A stretch of 52,556 nucleotides of DNA from Candidatus Krumholzibacteriota bacterium. GTDB lineage: Bacteria; Krumholzibacteriota; Krumholzibacteriia; LZORAL124-64-63. The notes under the pieces are model-generated. The model did not search any database, had not been told where the DNA came from, and was given only the letters and a program-made list of their open reading frames with translations. Each line of letters opens with the position of its first letter. Within the stretch, counting starts at the first letter, position 1. The stretch lies in NCBI GenBank assembly GCA_024275485.1, contig JAJRZA010000053.1, positions 88,608-141,163 of the forward strand, read 5' to 3'. Below, in pieces: positions 39,894 to 52,206 of this stretch. A program made the translations under genes and the position numbers.

Positions 39894-41837
39894 ATGACTA
39901 CAAACATGATCAACACCGATACGATCTGTGATCTGCAGGGAAAGCCCTTGCATCCGGACACGGTGACTCTTCTCAAAGCACTCGACAAGCTGCTCACAGT
40001 GGGGTCCTACTACTCTTCGGAACACGAACAGTACCTGCAGGCGGCCAGGAAAGAACGCAATGACATTGTCGACGTTATCGACGGGGCCAACAAGCGCGTC
40101 GCCATTGAAATCACAGCCCAGGGGGTGATGATCGGCACCCAGAACATCGACCCTCGCCACCGCAATGTGCGTTTGCTGCACGAGCTGCTGGTGCCGTTGA
40201 ACATCGCGCGGTTGGAAATCGGCGGGACGCTCACGCCCGAGGATTTGCGCCAGGCCATTGCCGCCTTGCAGGAATACAAGATGGCCCTCGGCAATTCCAG
40301 TACTTTCCACGAAATCGTTTTCGAAAACCTGCCCTCCTCGGTACAGGCAATCAGCTGCAGTGTGCTACAGCAGTCCGAAGACCAAATGAAAAGCGACCAG
40401 GAGGAAAACTCCCTCGACGACCTGCTCGGCCAGTGGAACGACGACACTCCTTCCACCGTGGATCACGAATCCGAGACCGAACAGCTGGCCCGCCAGTTCA
40501 TGGACATGGTCTCGCGGATCCTCGAAAATCTTGAACAGCTCGATCGCGAGTCCGGGATCGCGGCCAAGGACGGTGAAGACGGTTCCTACGTGACCCGTGC
40601 CGACCTCATCAATCTCAAGCAGGCCCTGCAGCGGCTGGTGGAAGTGAACCCCGATCCGGCCGAACTGACCAAGCTCATCTCCCAGGCCCAGCGCGCCCTC
40701 GACCTGAGTCGAGATCCCCGCTCGGTCAACCTCGTCTTCAGGATCCTGAAAAAAGACATGGAAAAGAAACGCTTGGAGAAAGACGCCGACAGAACGCTGA
40801 AATCCCCCCAAATCGAGTACAAACTCACCATTGACGAGCTTCTCGAGTCGGTGGCCGAGCTGGAAACCGCGAACGCTCTGGTGGATGATCCATGGGCTGG
40901 CTCCCGGACCAACCAATTGGCCATCAGTTTGCATATGTTGCGGTCGGACCCGCCATGGGCATTGCGCACAAGCATGGTCGATGTGATCGAGCGCGCAGTG
41001 ATCCGTCCGGATTTCGCCACCCACAATCTGCTGGTGTGCGCCCAGGCTTTCGATACGATCTTGCGGGAGGAAGGTGCCGACGGGTTGGAAGATCTGCTGA
41101 CCCTGGTGACGGGCATCATGCGCCTAAAACGTTCCGAAATGATCGCGCCCTTCTGGGTACACCTGATCGAGCTGATAGACGACAACCAAATACCGGAGCT
41201 TTGGCCGCATCTGGTCAACGACATTCTGCTGGGGTTCGAAGGAGCGTCTCGCGAAACGGTGACCAGACTGGTGCTGGCCTCCGGTAAGATCTCCGTACAG
41301 GGGGCCAAGGCCCACCGACGTGTACTCGGGAAGCAACCGGCCCTGCAGGGCAAAACCGCGTCCCGGGATATTTTCACCGCCCCGCTGAACAAGCTGTATC
41401 CGGTTTATGGCATGCTCATGGCTTCGCCGCTGCGCAGTTGGTTGGGCGCAGAGCTCTATCGTGCCTTGCGCCTGAAACCCGGTTCGGACCTGGCCGAGAT
41501 CGTGATGGCAGCCCTGGGCGAACATCAGCCGGAGCTCGTCACATTCTATCTGGATCTGATTCGGCATCATGGCCATCCCCAGCCGCCGACCGAGGTTCTC
41601 AAACCCGCGGTTGAGATCCTGCAAGGGGCACTGTCGGGCGCATCGTCTGAAGTGCGCCAGGAAAGTTGGGTTCCCGGTGGCCTGACTGAGCTGGGGAAGC
41701 TTGATCCGGAAGGGGCAGTCCCTCTTTTGGAATGTGTCCTCAACGATCGTAAATTTTTCTTTTTCAAAGCCTGGCCCGCCCCCGCGCGTGAAGCGGCCGA
41801 AAAGTCCCTGACCACCGTCCGCAAGGAGGTCGAATAA
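39894..41837 (+). CDS. Solenoid protein with N-terminal module shared with the downstream HD-GYP protein
   Basis: 647 residues, no signal or membrane segment. Residues about 15-125 form a module with the features Y-x-x-(E/N)H, a central G, and TPEDLRQAI; the next gene's N-terminus has the same arrangement (TPADLVTFF). The C-terminal about 350 residues are helical, in a pattern like HEAT or armadillo repeats. No catalytic motif is recognised. A glycine-rich run precedes the ATG at 39894. The stop is one base before the HD-GYP start, so the two are an operon and probably work together. Solenoid protein-protein binding is an inference from composition. Confidence 0.72.
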   Translation: MTTNMINTDTICDLQGKPLHPDTVTLLKALDKLLTVGSYYSSEHEQYLQAARKERNDIVDVIDGANKRVAIEITAQGVMIGTQNIDPRHRNVRLLHELLVPLNIARLEIGGTLTPEDLRQAIAALQEYKMALGNSSTFHEIVFENLPSSVQAISCSVLQQSEDQMKSDQEENSLDDLLGQWNDDTPSTVDHESETEQLARQFMDMVSRILENLEQLDRESGIAAKDGEDGSYVTRADLINLKQALQRLVEVNPDPAELTKLISQAQRALDLSRDPRSVNLVFRILKKDMEKKRLEKDADRTLKSPQIEYKLTIDELLESVAELETANALVDDPWAGSRTNQLAISLHMLRSDPPWALRTSMVDVIERAVIRPDFATHNLLVCAQAFDTILREEGADGLEDLLTLVTGIMRLKRSEMIAPFWVHLIELIDDNQIPELWPHLVNDILLGFEGASRETVTRLVLASGKISVQGAKAHRRVLGKQPALQGKTASRDIFTAPLNKLYPVYGMLMASPLRSWLGAELYRALRLKPGSDLAEIVMAALGEHQPELVTFYLDLIRHHGHPQPPTEVLKPAVEILQGALSGASSEVRQESWVPGGLTELGKLDPEGAVPLLECVLNDRKFFFFKAWPAPAREAAEKSLTTVRKEVE

Positions 41838-41838
41838 A

Positions 41839-43266
41839 ATGGAACAGCGTTTAAGTGACCTGATCATCCTGTTGGCCAGTGGCATCAACCAGCGCCGAAT
41901 GTATTTCGACAATCACCCCAATGTGCAGGCCCTCAGCGCCGAAATTGTCGAGAAGCTGCGGGCCATGCTCAGTGAATCCGAGCAAAACGAGTTCGCCTTC
42001 GGGGTTTTCAGCAGCAAATTCATCCGCAAGGGAAAATACCTGGTGGGCCCGTCTATTGCGGGCCGCTCCCTGATTGAGTTTTCCGAATGTTTGTGTTGCG
42101 GCGGTTTTGTTTTTCGTTGGCCCATCACTCCCGCCGACCTGGTGACTTTCTTCCGGTTGGGCGCCGAACAAAAGGACAAACTTGACAGCCTCGAAACAGC
42201 GCGGGCGTTCTTTGCCTCGGCCGGCTTGAGCCACATTGAAATTTCTCCCCCTTTAAGCGAAGATCGCCAAGAGGGCAGGGACGACGGTAAGAATTCCGAG
42301 TCCGATGACAACGACGACATGGACTTCATGGCTGCCGACTTCGCACCCCTGCTGCGTGTCTATCAGTCTCTGTACGAGACCGTGGCCACCAATAACATTG
42401 CCCTCAACAGCGACAACCGCATCGACCTGGACCAGGCTCGCTCCAGTGGCGAAGAGTTGGTCGCCGTCTCGGATAAGGGAGCCTTGGATGTCATGCAGTT
42501 CATGCGCTACCCCGACTTCGACAGCTACACCATCGGCCATTCGGTGCGGGTGGCCGCTCTTGGCGCACTTCTCGCCCGCGAGTTGGACTGGCCACGGGAT
42601 CTGCAGAACGAAATCGCCACCGCGGGCCTTCTGCACGACCTGGGCAAGGGCAGTGTGCCGGACGAAATCCTCTTCAAGCCGGGATGCCTGAGCGACGACG
42701 AACGACAGATCATGGAGACTCACCCGGTGCTCGGCGTGCGAATCCTTTTGGCCAACGGTGAGACCAATCCCATCGTGCTGTCTGCGGCCTGGGGACATCA
42801 CATTCGCGAAGACGGGCGCGGTTACCCGGTGATGCCACCGTGGTTTGCCCGCAGCTCGGCTGCGGCCCTGATCCATGTGTGCGACGTGTTCGAGGCCCTG
42901 ACGGCGGCGCGGCCCTACAAGAACCCCATGTGCCCACGCCGGGCCTATGAGATCATGATCAAAGACAAGGGCGCCTTCCAACCCCTGATTCTCGCGGCAT
43001 TGATTCGCACCCTTTGCCTGTACCCACCGGGCAGCGAGGTGCTGCTCTCAGACCGTCGACGTGCGGTGGTGGTTGCCAAGGGGCCAACGCCCGGGCTGCC
43101 GTTGGTGCGCATAACCCACGACGAGTCCGGGGTGCCGCTCCCCCGTCAGAAGCAACCGGCCGTGCACCTGCACAGGGAGCCCAAACTCCAGATCGACGAG
43201 TTCATGCAGGTGGGGGTCGATTCGGATGAAAATGCCGACACCGAAACGGTGGTGCATACGGTTTGA
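41839..43266 (+). CDS. HD-GYP domain protein, probable cyclic-di-GMP phosphodiesterase
   Basis: 475 residues. An N-terminal module (about 5-120) is followed by an acidic linker (about 138-165) and an HD-GYP domain with H266-D267 in LLHDLGKG, H295-P296 in METHPVLG, H320-H321 and GYP at 328-330. HD-GYP proteins hydrolyse cyclic-di-GMP to GMP or pGpG. The N-terminal module resembles that of the preceding gene. The start is one base after the previous stop, so translation is coupled. The acidic linker suggests a hinge between sensing and catalytic parts. Confidence 0.9.
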   Translation: MEQRLSDLIILLASGINQRRMYFDNHPNVQALSAEIVEKLRAMLSESEQNEFAFGVFSSKFIRKGKYLVGPSIAGRSLIEFSECLCCGGFVFRWPITPADLVTFFRLGAEQKDKLDSLETARAFFASAGLSHIEISPPLSEDRQEGRDDGKNSESDDNDDMDFMAADFAPLLRVYQSLYETVATNNIALNSDNRIDLDQARSSGEELVAVSDKGALDVMQFMRYPDFDSYTIGHSVRVAALGALLARELDWPRDLQNEIATAGLLHDLGKGSVPDEILFKPGCLSDDERQIMETHPVLGVRILLANGETNPIVLSAAWGHHIREDGRGYPVMPPWFARSSAAALIHVCDVFEALTAARPYKNPMCPRRAYEIMIKDKGAFQPLILAALIRTLCLYPPGSEVLLSDRRRAVVVAKGPTPGLPLVRITHDESGVPLPRQKQPAVHLHREPKLQIDEFMQVGVDSDENADTETVVHTV

Positions 43267-47373: not shown

Positions 47374-50300
47374 ATGACCACTCGCCCCATTTCCCGAGCC
47401 AACGGTTTGATCACTTTGGCTTCAGGAGGTCTGCTTGTCCTCTCATCCGTATTGTTTGCCGGCCTGTCCTTTGCGATAATACCAACAGAACATCTGCAAA
47501 CATCAGTGTTGCATTTTGGGGAAAATACAAACGACGGTGCCCCCCAGTGGGAAATAACTGACTCCAACGATCAGGTTCTGGAAATAAAATTCACCTTGCC
47601 CGCCCTGGAATTGAATCAAATTCAAGCCGATGGCCGGATCTGGCAAACCCTGAATATTGAAGGTGCTGTAGAGCATGGTTCCATTGGTGAGCCAGGTCTG
47701 CCGGTGATCAGCCGCCTGATCGCCGTGCCGCGGGGAATGACTCTTTCTGCGCGATTGGAAAGTGCAGTCCCTACCAAGGTTTCCAACCTGCAGATTTTGC
47801 CGGTCCAGGATCCGGCCGGGGCAAAATTCTCCTATTCCATGTCCGTGTACGAAAACAATACCTCCGCCAGGGCGACTGAACCGGAAATCCGCGTTGGTGG
47901 TGCAGCCATCCTTGCCGGTCAGACTGTTGTTCCCTTGACCATCCGTCTGGTGGATTTCGACACATCCAGACAGGAAGCCACCGTCTGGACCGAAGTCATT
48001 CTGAAACTTGAATTTGTTGCCGACCCCAAAGCTTCGGCAACTTCCCACCAACCCACCCACGCGGTGCCAGCTTCTTTTTCCAGGCAGATGCAGTCCGATG
48101 TCCTCGGTTATCAACTGCAGAACTCAGGCGATAGCGTCAAATCCGGAACCGCCGCTTCGGGTCTTGGAACCTACGTCGCCGTTCATTCCGGCCAGGCTGG
48201 TGTCTCCACGGGCATCGCCCCCTTGTTGCAATGGCGCCGGGAGCAAGGCTACCACGTGATCGAATTCAATTCCAACCTGAGCGGCAACACTACCACTGCG
48301 ATAAAAGATGCCCTGCAGGATATCTACAACGACGAGACAATCCCTCCTCTGGAATTCATCAGCATCTTCGGGGACGCCTCCGGGACATCTTTCGTACCCA
48401 CCTGGACCGAAACCCTCTCCGGTTACAACGGTGGTGGGGACCACTATTACACCATGCTGGATGGCGACGACATTCTGGCCGACGCGCACATCGGCCGGGT
48501 CTCCTTCGGATCGCTCACTGAGATGAACACCATCATTGGCAAGATCCTGGGTTATGAAAAAACGCCTCCCATGGACGACACCGGATGGTATGGCCGAGCC
48601 TGCCTGCAGGGTGACCCCAGCGCTTCGGGCATCACCACCATCTACACCAACCAGTGGGTCAAGGGTCAACTCCAGAATCTTGGCTGGTCCCAAGTCGACA
48701 CCACCTGGTCCGGCAACTTCGTCTCGCCCATGATGGCCCAGGTGGGGCAGGGCGTCACTGCTTATGGTTACCGGGGCTATCTCGGAACCAGCGGCATCAC
48801 CAACGGTCACGTCACCTCCCTGACCAATGGCGGAAAGTTGGCCATGGCCCTGTTGCCCACCTGCGCTTCTGGCAGTTTCGCCAACCAGACGGCCCGCAGT
48901 GAAGCATGGCTTCGCGCGCCCAACGGCGGTGCTGTGGCTGCCATCGGAACGGCCACCACCGGGACTCATACGCGTTACAACAACTGCTACTATCTTGGTA
49001 CCTGGGACGGCCTTTTGAACCGAAACGACTACCGCATCGGCACCGCCCACACCCTGGGCAAGATTGCCCTGTACACCGGCTACTACCTGGCGGAGCCCGC
49101 ACGCGCCGAGATCTGGGCCGTGTGGAACAACATCATGGGCGACCCGGCCACCGAAATGTGGACCGGTGTGCCGCGCATGCTGGATGTTGATTATCCTGCT
49201 CAAATTTCTATTGGCGGCCAGGCTGTCACCATCAGCGTCAGCCACCTGGGATCACCTGTGGTCGGCGCGCAGGTATGTTTGTACCGGGCCGCCGGAGCCC
49301 AACCCGATATCATTCAGATCACCGGCCTGACCGATTCCGCCGGTCAGGTGGTTCTGAATCTTCCCGATCTTGCCAGCGGTTCCGTCACCATCACGGTCAC
49401 CGGACACAACTTTCTACCCCACCTCGGAGGCCTCACCGTTGGCCTGGTCGATGTTTTCTGCGGAGTCACCAGCCGAACCATTGATGATGGTGGAGACGGC
49501 TTCTTCAATCCCGGCGAAAATGTGGATCTTACTGCCGGCCTGACCAACCATGGCACCAGCGATGCTTTTGGAGTCACTGCGGAATTGACCCTCCTGAGCG
49601 GCCCGGCCAGTGTCAGTGCCGGAAGTCTGAACTTCGGAACCATCACTGCCGGCGACGAAGTCTACGCATCCACCCCTGCAGTGATCACCATGGATACGAA
49701 CGCCGTGGACGGCGCCACTGTTGAACTTTTGCTGACCGCCACCGACGGCCAGGACACCTGGACATCCTTGCTGGAAGAAAGTGTTCGGGCTGCAGCTTTC
49801 AGTGTAACGGCCATGGACCTGTCCGATTTTGGTGGCAGCATCGATCCAGGCGAAACCGGCCGCTTCGACCTGACCCTTGAAAACTTGGGTAGCCTGGATG
49901 CCGGCGCAGTCAGCGCCACCCTGAGCACCAACAGCCCCTGGGTTATCATCACCGACGGGTCCGCCTCCTTTGGTTCCATCGATTCCGGCAGCACCGGCCG
50001 GGATCTGCTCTCTCCCTTCAGGGTGAGTGTTTCCAGCGACAGTTACGGCGGACACCTGGCCAGCTTCGAGTTGACTGTCAGCTACAATGACGGCTTGCAG
50101 GCCACCACTCACACCGTCGCCACCATAGGCATCTCCACAAGCGACCAGCCCACCGGCCCGGATGCCTACGGCTACTACGCTTTCGACAACACCGACGCCG
50201 GTAGCCAGATGGCCCCCGAATACAACTGGGTGGGCATCGACCCTGATCATGGCGGCCAGGGAACCGACCTGGGATTGACGGATTTCGGCTGGGAGCAGGA

Positions 50301-52206
50301 CGATACCAAAACCATCAGACTGCCTTTCGACTTCGGATTCTATGGTGATATTTACGAATTTGCCAGTATCTGCTCCAACGGCTGGTTGGCCATGGGAGGG
50401 ACCCCGGTCAATTTCTACCGCAATTTTCCCTTGCCCGCCTCCCACAGCGCCGGTGCCCTGATCGCGCCCTTCTGGGATAACCTCAACCAAACGGGTAATA
50501 AAAAAGTCTACACCTGGTATGACGAAGTCGAACACCGCTTCATCATCCAGTGGTACGAAATGCCAAACCACTACACCAGCAGCATCCAAAACTTTGAAGT
50601 CATACTGCTGGATCCTGACTACCACCCCACGACCACCGGCGACGGCATGATCATTTTCCAGTATGCCGAGGTGCACAACACCGATTCACGGGATGGTTAC
50701 GCCACCGTCGGTATCCAGAACATGCCCCGCACCGACGGCATCAATTACAGCTACTGGAACCAGTATGCCCCCGGCGCCGCGCCCCTGGCTGCCGGCCGCG
50801 CCATCCTGTTTGCCCCCATGGGCGAGTTGGCCTTGCCCGCCGTGAATGTCACCCCGGGTGTCCTGGCCCAAACGTTGATGCCCGGCGATCAGATCACCGA
50901 GTACCTGCATATCGCCAACAATGGTGATGCGGGATCGATCCTGAACTTCACCGTCAACATATTTGACCCGGCCACTGTAGAGTCGGGAAAATCTGCTGGT
51001 GGCCAGAACGATATCATTGTCGAACCCAGCAGCCTTTTGAACAGTGAAGTCAGCAGCACAACCGTGGATTATGATGCCGGCTCCACCATTGATTTCCCGC
51101 TGCACGTGATTTGCCACAGCCCCGACGACGAATGGCTGATGAAGATGGAACTGGACCTTCCGGACGGCGTCACCGTGAACTCCGCCGATGATCTGGGCAC
51201 ACCCCATGGACCCATGGCATGGAACGGCCAAACCGGCAACGGAGTCATCACCAATTGGGGTGACGTGGGCTGGGGATCCGGTGCCTATTTCACCGACGGT
51301 GAATCCGGGGATACTTCGGTGAACCTGAGTTTTGATGCCGGCTTGTCGGATGATGTGGTGATCGGCTGGACGGTTTTCGGTGACGAATATGGCGGAGCTC
51401 CCCACCAGGTTTCCGGGCAAATCGTTTTGACGCTCATCGCTCCGTTCATCAATGTCAGCCGACCAAGTGACGGTGAGGTGGCAGTTCTGGGCGAAACCCT
51501 GGACGTGGTTTTCACAGCTGCCAACGGCCCGGAAATAGTGAGCATCGACCTTCAACGCCAAGAAGGCGGAACCTGGGAAAACCTCGCTTATGCCCTGAAT
51601 GCAAACACTTCTCCCTGGAGTTGGAATATCAGCGGCGAGCCCGGTCCCTACGCCCGCATCAGGGTGCGGGATTCGGCCGATTCGGAAGTATTCGGCCTCA
51701 GTGGCGTGTTCGCCGTCAGCAACAATCTGGACTGGCTGCAATTGGCGACCGATTCCGGTCAAGTCAACGCGGGTGAAGCCATGGACCTGGCTGTAGTCCT
51801 GGATTCCGCTGGCTTGAACCAGGGTGTGTACGAAGCCGGTATCGCCATTGCCAGCAATGGTGGCCCACCCGTCGTTATCCCCGTGACGATGACGGTTTCG
51901 GATGCTTCTTCGGTGGGCGAACTGCCCGGTGCAGTGGCCTTGCTGGGCAACCACCCGAACCCCTTCAACCCACAAACGATCATCAGCTTTGCCCTGCCAA
52001 CCAGTCAGGATGTGACGTTGCGGGTTTATTCGGCTCGCGGCGCACTGATTCGCTCCCTGCTGCGTGGAGTCCAACCCGCCGGTCTGCATCGTGCGGTATG
52101 GGACGGGCGTGATGACCGCGGCCATGGTGTGGCTTCGGGGGTTTATTTCTATCGGCTGGAGACGGATGAAGCCAACTTCACCGGGAAAATGGTTTTGACC
52201 AAATAG
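47374..52206 (+). CDS. Large secreted C25 (gingipain-family) peptidase with T9SS-type tail
   Basis: 1610 residues. A signal peptide (about 1-34) precedes a propeptide-like N-terminal region (to about 260), a C25 peptidase domain (about 265-595) and Ig-like/beta-sandwich domains (about 600-925). A beta-rich domain with FDFGFYGDIYEF follows near 990, then further beta domains and a C-terminal sorting domain with NHPNPFNP near 1525. The catalytic Cys aligns with C497 in LPTCASGSF. The catalytic His of gingipains (GHG) aligns by eye with R467 in GYRGYLG, so activity may be altered; H479 is a nearby candidate. It should be exported by the Sec and type IX systems to the surface or outside. ATG at 47374 has GGAGAAG upstream. 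Confidence 0.87.
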   Translation: MTTRPISRANGLITLASGGLLVLSSVLFAGLSFAIIPTEHLQTSVLHFGENTNDGAPQWEITDSNDQVLEIKFTLPALELNQIQADGRIWQTLNIEGAVEHGSIGEPGLPVISRLIAVPRGMTLSARLESAVPTKVSNLQILPVQDPAGAKFSYSMSVYENNTSARATEPEIRVGGAAILAGQTVVPLTIRLVDFDTSRQEATVWTEVILKLEFVADPKASATSHQPTHAVPASFSRQMQSDVLGYQLQNSGDSVKSGTAASGLGTYVAVHSGQAGVSTGIAPLLQWRREQGYHVIEFNSNLSGNTTTAIKDALQDIYNDETIPPLEFISIFGDASGTSFVPTWTETLSGYNGGGDHYYTMLDGDDILADAHIGRVSFGSLTEMNTIIGKILGYEKTPPMDDTGWYGRACLQGDPSASGITTIYTNQWVKGQLQNLGWSQVDTTWSGNFVSPMMAQVGQGVTAYGYRGYLGTSGITNGHVTSLTNGGKLAMALLPTCASGSFANQTARSEAWLRAPNGGAVAAIGTATTGTHTRYNNCYYLGTWDGLLNRNDYRIGTAHTLGKIALYTGYYLAEPARAEIWAVWNNIMGDPATEMWTGVPRMLDVDYPAQISIGGQAVTISVSHLGSPVVGAQVCLYRAAGAQPDIIQITGLTDSAGQVVLNLPDLASGSVTITVTGHNFLPHLGGLTVGLVDVFCGVTSRTIDDGGDGFFNPGENVDLTAGLTNHGTSDAFGVTAELTLLSGPASVSAGSLNFGTITAGDEVYASTPAVITMDTNAVDGATVELLLTATDGQDTWTSLLEESVRAAAFSVTAMDLSDFGGSIDPGETGRFDLTLENLGSLDAGAVSATLSTNSPWVIITDGSASFGSIDSGSTGRDLLSPFRVSVSSDSYGGHLASFELTVSYNDGLQATTHTVATIGISTSDQPTGPDAYGYYAFDNTDAGSQMAPEYNWVGIDPDHGGQGTDLGLTDFGWEQDDTKTIRLPFDFGFYGDIYEFASICSNGWLAMGGTPVNFYRNFPLPASHSAGALIAPFWDNLNQTGNKKVYTWYDEVEHRFIIQWYEMPNHYTSSIQNFEVILLDPDYHPTTTGDGMIIFQYAEVHNTDSRDGYATVGIQNMPRTDGINYSYWNQYAPGAAPLAAGRAILFAPMGELALPAVNVTPGVLAQTLMPGDQITEYLHIANNGDAGSILNFTVNIFDPATVESGKSAGGQNDIIVEPSSLLNSEVSSTTVDYDAGSTIDFPLHVICHSPDDEWLMKMELDLPDGVTVNSADDLGTPHGPMAWNGQTGNGVITNWGDVGWGSGAYFTDGESGDTSVNLSFDAGLSDDVVIGWTVFGDEYGGAPHQVSGQIVLTLIAPFINVSRPSDGEVAVLGETLDVVFTAANGPEIVSIDLQRQEGGTWENLAYALNANTSPWSWNISGEPGPYARIRVRDSADSEVFGLSGVFAVSNNLDWLQLATDSGQVNAGEAMDLAVVLDSAGLNQGVYEAGIAIASNGGPPVVIPVTMTVSDASSVGELPGAVALLGNHPNPFNPQTIISFALPTSQDVTLRVYSARGALIRSLLRGVQPAGLHRAVWDGRDDRGHGVASGVYFYRLETDEANFTGKMVLTK

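Follow-up and report, generated by a model that had tools for sequence, protein, structure and literature searches.

A conserved gene pair encoding a putative HEAT-type solenoid protein and a predicted HD-GYP phosphodiesterase with a common N-terminal module

Introduction

HD-GYP proteins are among the main enzymes that break down cyclic dinucleotides and, to our knowledge, how most of them are controlled is unknown. Two adjacent genes in the 52,556-nucleotide stretch of a Candidatus Krumholzibacteriota genome analysed here (the window; the host genome is a 4.0 Mb draft) raise the question of whether such an enzyme can be tied to one fixed partner. An initial annotation, made from the sequence of the window, had described the two genes as encoding a solenoid protein (here SOL) and an HD-GYP phosphodiesterase (here HDG), both beginning with a similar module through which the two proteins could pair. 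We asked whether the module is really common to both proteins, whether the genes are kept together in other genomes, and which explanation fits the pair best.

Results

Layout of the two genes

The features of the locus are reported in Table 1. The SOL gene ends at 41837 and the HDG gene starts at 41839, in agreement with the single intervening base previously noted, and the relatives of SOL use the same ATG. Neither SOL nor the first 170 residues of HDG matched any Pfam or NCBIfam family. Two motifs on which the initial annotation had based the resemblance in part, Y-x-x-(E/N)H and TP-x-DL, are present in both proteins, as Y40-S-S-E-H44 and LTPEDL in SOL and as Y22-F-D-N-H26 and ITPADL in HDG. 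Elsewhere in the window, positions 47374-52206 encode a secreted protein of 1,610 aa that by eye resembles a peptidase of the gingipain type, its C-terminal tail being of the sorting or FlgD-like kind.

Table 1. Coordinates of the features of the SOL-HDG locus in the window
Feature	Position	Strand	Basis
SOL (gene 1, P0001), N-terminal module and putative diverged HEAT-type helical solenoid, 647 aa	39894..41837	+	ORF/translation
Shared N-terminal module in SOL	39948..40346	+	Profile A11 match (A11 includes own sequence); hhalign
SOL solenoid part matching the HEAT-repeat part of partners in other phyla, approximate borders	40914..41834	+	hhalign
AAGGAGG, ribosome-binding-site-like, within the SOL end, 9 bases before the HDG start	41823..41829	+	Read from sequence
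HDG (gene 2, P0002), N-terminal module and HD-GYP domain, 475 aa	41839..43266	+	ORF/translation; Pfam HD_5; PDB 4mcw, 5z7c
Shared N-terminal module in HDG	41839..42246	+	Profile A11 match (A11 includes own sequence); hhalign
HD-GYP domain of HDG, Pfam HD_5, residues 230-378	42526..42972	+	Pfam; alignment A5 (27 rows); alignment to PmGH
Conserved stretch LYPPGSEVxLxD... after the HD-GYP domain, residues about 396-445	43024..43173	+	Alignment A5

Homology of the N-terminal modules

The module common to the two N-termini spans ~140 residues. When 32 SOL rows and 39 HDG rows, all from the phylum of the window, were compared with hhalign, the N-termini matched with a probability of 89.2 and an E-value of 2.2e-6 over 92 columns, in the register originally proposed. 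The score of this match (41.2) lies far above the best of 200 column shuffles of one side (19.4), the reversed profile (12.4), and 11 other segments of the two proteins used as displaced controls (8.5-14.2). The profile-profile comparison that had been suggested together with the initial annotation thus found the similarity that the annotation claimed. Furthermore, 56 SOL-type and 56 HDG-type modules from a wide sample, mostly of other phyla, matched each other with a probability of 99.8 (E 1.7e-30, 139 columns), and both phylum profiles matched both wide profiles with E-values from 7.9e-14 to 3.2e-17. The E-values involving the wide profiles are partly biased to the generous side, because the profile used to collect the wide modules (A6) contains both types; the phylum-only comparison is free of this bias. 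Only a Y is near invariant across the module family (90% or more in alignment A11), and a four-row alignment of SOL and HDG modules came out of register.

Conservation of the pair within the phylum

Within the phylum, the HDG protein served as the sole query against 80 genomes, and loci were fetched on HDG only. HDG was found in 29 of the 80 genomes at E 1e-45, and SOL lies directly upstream of 38 of the 39 homologous HDG genes (31 fetched loci plus the window; one unrelated HD-GYP match in L049 was left out of this count). The single unpaired gene, in L050, sits at a contig end. Of the 38 paired SOL genes, four run off a contig end and another is broken across two reading frames. In L069 (4157-6337), the HDG frame is about 727-760 residues long and holds a second HD-GYP stretch, either a fusion or an assembly artefact.

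In seven loci there are two pairs on the same strand, which are adjacent in six of these loci and about 2.5 kb apart in L047. In the four tandem arrays in which both SOL genes are complete, the two pairs have diverged widely (24-26% and 43-47% identity), and for all eight pairs the closest SOL and the closest HDG both belong to pairs that lie outside the array. The genome of the window has a second SOL-HDG pair elsewhere, and a search of that genome with the module profile A11 at E 0.1 gave no copy beyond the four paired genes (A11 includes those four). With SOL as the query, a single scan of genome contigs retrieved one locus.

Conservation of the pair beyond the phylum

In unrelated genomes, the phylum HDG-module profile matched three proteins weakly (E 2.0e-6, 1.0e-4, and 7.0e-4). 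Each of these is an HD-GYP protein with a module-bearing HEAT-repeat protein encoded directly upstream. The six modules of these three distant pairs, of both types, form profile A6, with which the module was detected in 139 of 387 genomes (E 0.01). The wide sample comprises 83 loci, 80 from the best part of the A6 match list plus the first three.

In this sample, 61 ORFs carry the module together with an HD-GYP domain, and 56 of them are immediately preceded, on the same strand, by a module-only ORF. The 56 pairs come from 55 loci in 55 genomes and represent 45 family-level lineages, 42 of which lie outside the window's phylum. Gene order is SOL then HDG in every wide pair, and the distance from the SOL stop to the HDG module start ranges from -19 to +160 bases in 55 of the 56, the remaining one (L143) having 1,175 bases. 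The proposal that the genes are conserved as neighbors therefore holds within the phylum and in many other lineages. The five unpaired ORFs include two at contig ends and three that stand alone (L180, L189, and L190), from one family of the window's class; by eye, the gene upstream of the lone ORF in L180 and L189 encodes a divergent TPR-like, lipoprotein-like product.

Neighbor families beside the pair recur in 4 of the 45 families at most. Module-only ORFs without an HD-GYP partner numbered 25, several of them at contig ends, so pairing with an HD-GYP protein is not the only use of the module. Searches of viral contigs gave 10 pattern matches, none confirmed, and a search of plasmids gave none. 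Other arrangements were also seen: in L163 (3937-6048), a scaffold protein with two tandem module copies is followed by one HD-GYP partner, and in L182, L183, and L184-L186 the module occurs in proteins of about 1,370 and 360 residues, with no Pfam match for those of L182, L184, and L185. Since bacteria that are only very remotely related share this gene pair, it probably represents a signaling unit that is widespread and so far undescribed.

The solenoid of SOL

Among the wide partners, 51 of 53 match Pfam HEAT_2. The window SOL matched no Pfam HEAT family at E 1, nor did any of the 28 phylum SOL relatives, the window copy included, match one at E 0.01. By hhalign, the C-terminal part of SOL matched the HEAT part of the wide partners (probability 85.9, E 5.2e-6, 276 columns), with a score of 53.8 versus 17.4 for the best of 60 shuffles; the match failed when the eight nearer HEAT partners were used alone (probability 2.6). 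We read the window SOL as a diverged HEAT solenoid on the strength of this profile match.

The enzyme domain of HDG

HDG matches Pfam HD_5 (E 1.4e-22, 80.7 bits versus a cut-off of 27.2) and, in the PDB, 4mcw (E 3.4e-21 for the window protein) and also 5z7c; the initial reading of a helical-repeat protein adjoining an HD-GYP homologue is supported at the sequence level. The metal ligands of PmGH given in PMC4159591 are E185, H189, H221, D222, H250, H276, H277, and D305. Placing these residue numbers with an offset of 6 from the PDB chain numbers, seven of the eight ligands are kept in HDG, as H234, H266, D267, H295, H320, H321, and D349, and are invariant in the 27 rows of alignment A5, as is the GYP motif (G328-Y329-P330). 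The eighth, E185, corresponds to Y230, the mark of the Y/F subfamily, which is predicted to hold two metals (PMC4159591). A lysine, K270, and two residues that bind guanine show little or no variation among the 27 relatives. These residues point to HDG being a cyclic-dinucleotide phosphodiesterase, with c-di-GMP or a related dinucleotide as the predicted substrate.

Among the wide paired HD-GYP proteins, the Y of the GYP motif is kept in 49 of 56. All nine checked residues are present in 46 of 56, and at least one is missing in the other 10, in one case by a contig end; hydrolysis is thus not the whole point everywhere. The paired HD-GYP proteins of L160, L164, L170, and L181 have an altered GYP motif or lack active-site residues, and may be non-catalytic members kept in the pair. 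Single chains with the order GGDEF-AAA-module-HEAT were found in two family-level lineages (L159:1147-5877 and L188:2419-6042); the former keeps GGDEF and an RxxD, and the latter has AGDEF. These fusions tie the module to cyclic-dinucleotide signaling, and they are possible synthesizing counterparts of the pair.

The module and known domains

Pfam and NCBIfam searches with 72 modules gave single stray matches only, with no family covering the module, and a PDB profile search with the module alignment A2 found nothing below E 0.45. Octarellin V.1, a designed beta-alpha barrel, was matched by A11 in the PDB (E 1.8e-8, 41 columns), and we read this as a resemblance between beta-alpha units rather than as kinship. 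AlphaFold2 models built on two-row alignments (window and L040) had a mean pLDDT of 54.8 for the HDG module (36-38 for the other four models) and of 45.8 for SOL, the latter all-helical and untrustworthy. PADLOC gave no match for the window SOL and weak ones elsewhere, namely of HD-GYP proteins to Cas3-type HD models and of two wide HEAT partners to OloA and a HEAT-ARM model; we do not take these as a sign of a defense system.

Two explanations carry the least weight. In one of them, an ordinary HD-GYP gene happens to lie beside an unrelated neighbor and the N-terminal similarity arose by chance, in line with an identity of only 14% between the two modules of the window; this is refuted by profile scores far above every control, by the independent match of both modules to the wide profiles, and by a neighborhood kept in 45 families. 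The other takes the module as a diverged DUF3391, a known and uncharacterized N-terminal domain of many HD-GYP proteins, and we consider it very improbable. PMC12943098 suggests that many unannotated HD-GYP N-termini may belong to DUF3391, and two wide HD-GYP proteins do match it, at E 0.062 and 0.14, but in the linker and not in the module. None of the 72 modules matches DUF3391 at E 0.01, and hhalign comparison of the module with six HD-GYP N-termini from DUF3391-bearing genomes gave probabilities of 0.1-0.7, a weak test because two of the six excised stretches miss the DUF3391 part. DUF3391 is moreover described as mostly antiparallel beta (PMC12943098).

History of the module

A tree built from 76 modules separates the SOL type from the HDG type with 2 changes, against a mean of 25.7 with shuffled labels, and SOL as one clade is not rejected (p-AU 0.695). 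On the tree of all 120 modules, 6 changes are needed versus a shuffled mean of about 40, and the well-supported branches force only 1; both trees are limited by few columns and long branches. The nearly separate SOL and HDG branches across phyla make the pair look ancient and not remade by local duplication, and repeated local duplication is disfavored because SOL modules do not group with those of their own HDG partners. The two versions of the module look like the products of one ancient split.

Discussion

The reading that we favor, to which we assign a probability of about one half, is that SOL and HDG form a self-contained signaling pair held together by a shared docking module. Under this reading, one old duplication would have given two complementary versions of the module, which would dock a HEAT-type solenoid protein onto an HD-GYP cyclic-dinucleotide phosphodiesterase; the solenoid, by sensing or presenting a client, would then control or place the enzyme. 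Docking fits the strict pairing, the fixed order, the near-zero spacing, the unit-wise divergence, and the existence of two old module types. Physical pairing through the module, which we infer together with the direction of control (from solenoid to enzyme), is the best explanation.

Two other explanations accept the module and give it a different role. It could be a sensor of the same ligand or surface in both proteins, with SOL and HDG responding in parallel and unbound. We regard this as rather unlikely, even though HD-GYP N-terminal domains are often taken as sensors, as PMC12943098 does for DUF3391, and the module also heads solenoid proteins that have no HD-GYP neighbor and lies inside the GGDEF-AAA-HEAT proteins. 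A common sensor alone would not require one-to-one pairs, a single order, and two old module types across phyla, and a family in which only a Y is near invariant is unlike one with a ligand pocket. Less probable again, in our judgment, is that the module recruits each protein to a third partner, such as a membrane body, the pole, or the ribosome, so that the two are co-localized and not mutually docked. HEAT solenoids commonly bind other proteins, and the gene data are compatible with this; no third gene accompanies the pair (the best neighbor family reaches 4 of 45 families), but such a partner could be encoded elsewhere.

The docking reading can be extended, tentatively and with less than even odds, to an ancient two-protein second-messenger system spanning phyla. 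A new docking domain would have been duplicated once, early on, into a scaffold version and an enzyme version and the pair inherited as a unit, the HD-GYP proteins with altered sites, found in some lineages, would be nucleotide-reading subunits, and the GGDEF-AAA-module-HEAT chains would be the synthesizing counterpart.

We found no description of a HEAT/HD-GYP pair in the open-access PMC literature, nor anything there on Krumholzibacteria and cyclic di-GMP. The text of PMC3071791 that mentions HD-GYP or HEAT repeats is unrelated to the pair. A large group of HD-GYP proteins over many phyla thus has one fixed partner and one unnamed common domain. With the domain and the partner named, the control of these enzymes becomes directly testable, and annotators could label hundreds of proteins that are now only "HEAT repeat" or "HD domain".

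Comparison with known systems

An HD-GYP domain with another domain in front is known, and a fixed HEAT partner sharing that front domain is, as far as we have seen, new. PmGH, RpfG, and V-cGAP3, as presented in PMC4159591, resemble HDG in having a regulatory domain before the HD-GYP domain, and PmGH has in common with HDG the seven metal ligands and the GYP motif (PMC4159591). PmxA has the order Cache-HAMP-HD-GYP. Unlike the front domains of PmGH, RpfG, and V-cGAP3, that of HDG is an unnamed module, not GAF, REC, PAS, or DUF3391, and it also occurs on a separate HEAT partner encoded directly upstream. The DUF3391-HD-GYP proteins likewise have an uncharacterized domain of similar length before the HD-GYP domain (PMC12943098), but that domain shows no profile similarity to the module by the weak test above, and the paper describes it as beta-rich and without a paired HEAT gene. 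Finally, SOL resembles HEAT-repeat proteins in that the wide partners match HEAT_2 and the window solenoid matches their HEAT part by profile, whereas the window copy and its 27 phylum relatives lie below the reach of Pfam, and all carry the N-terminal module.
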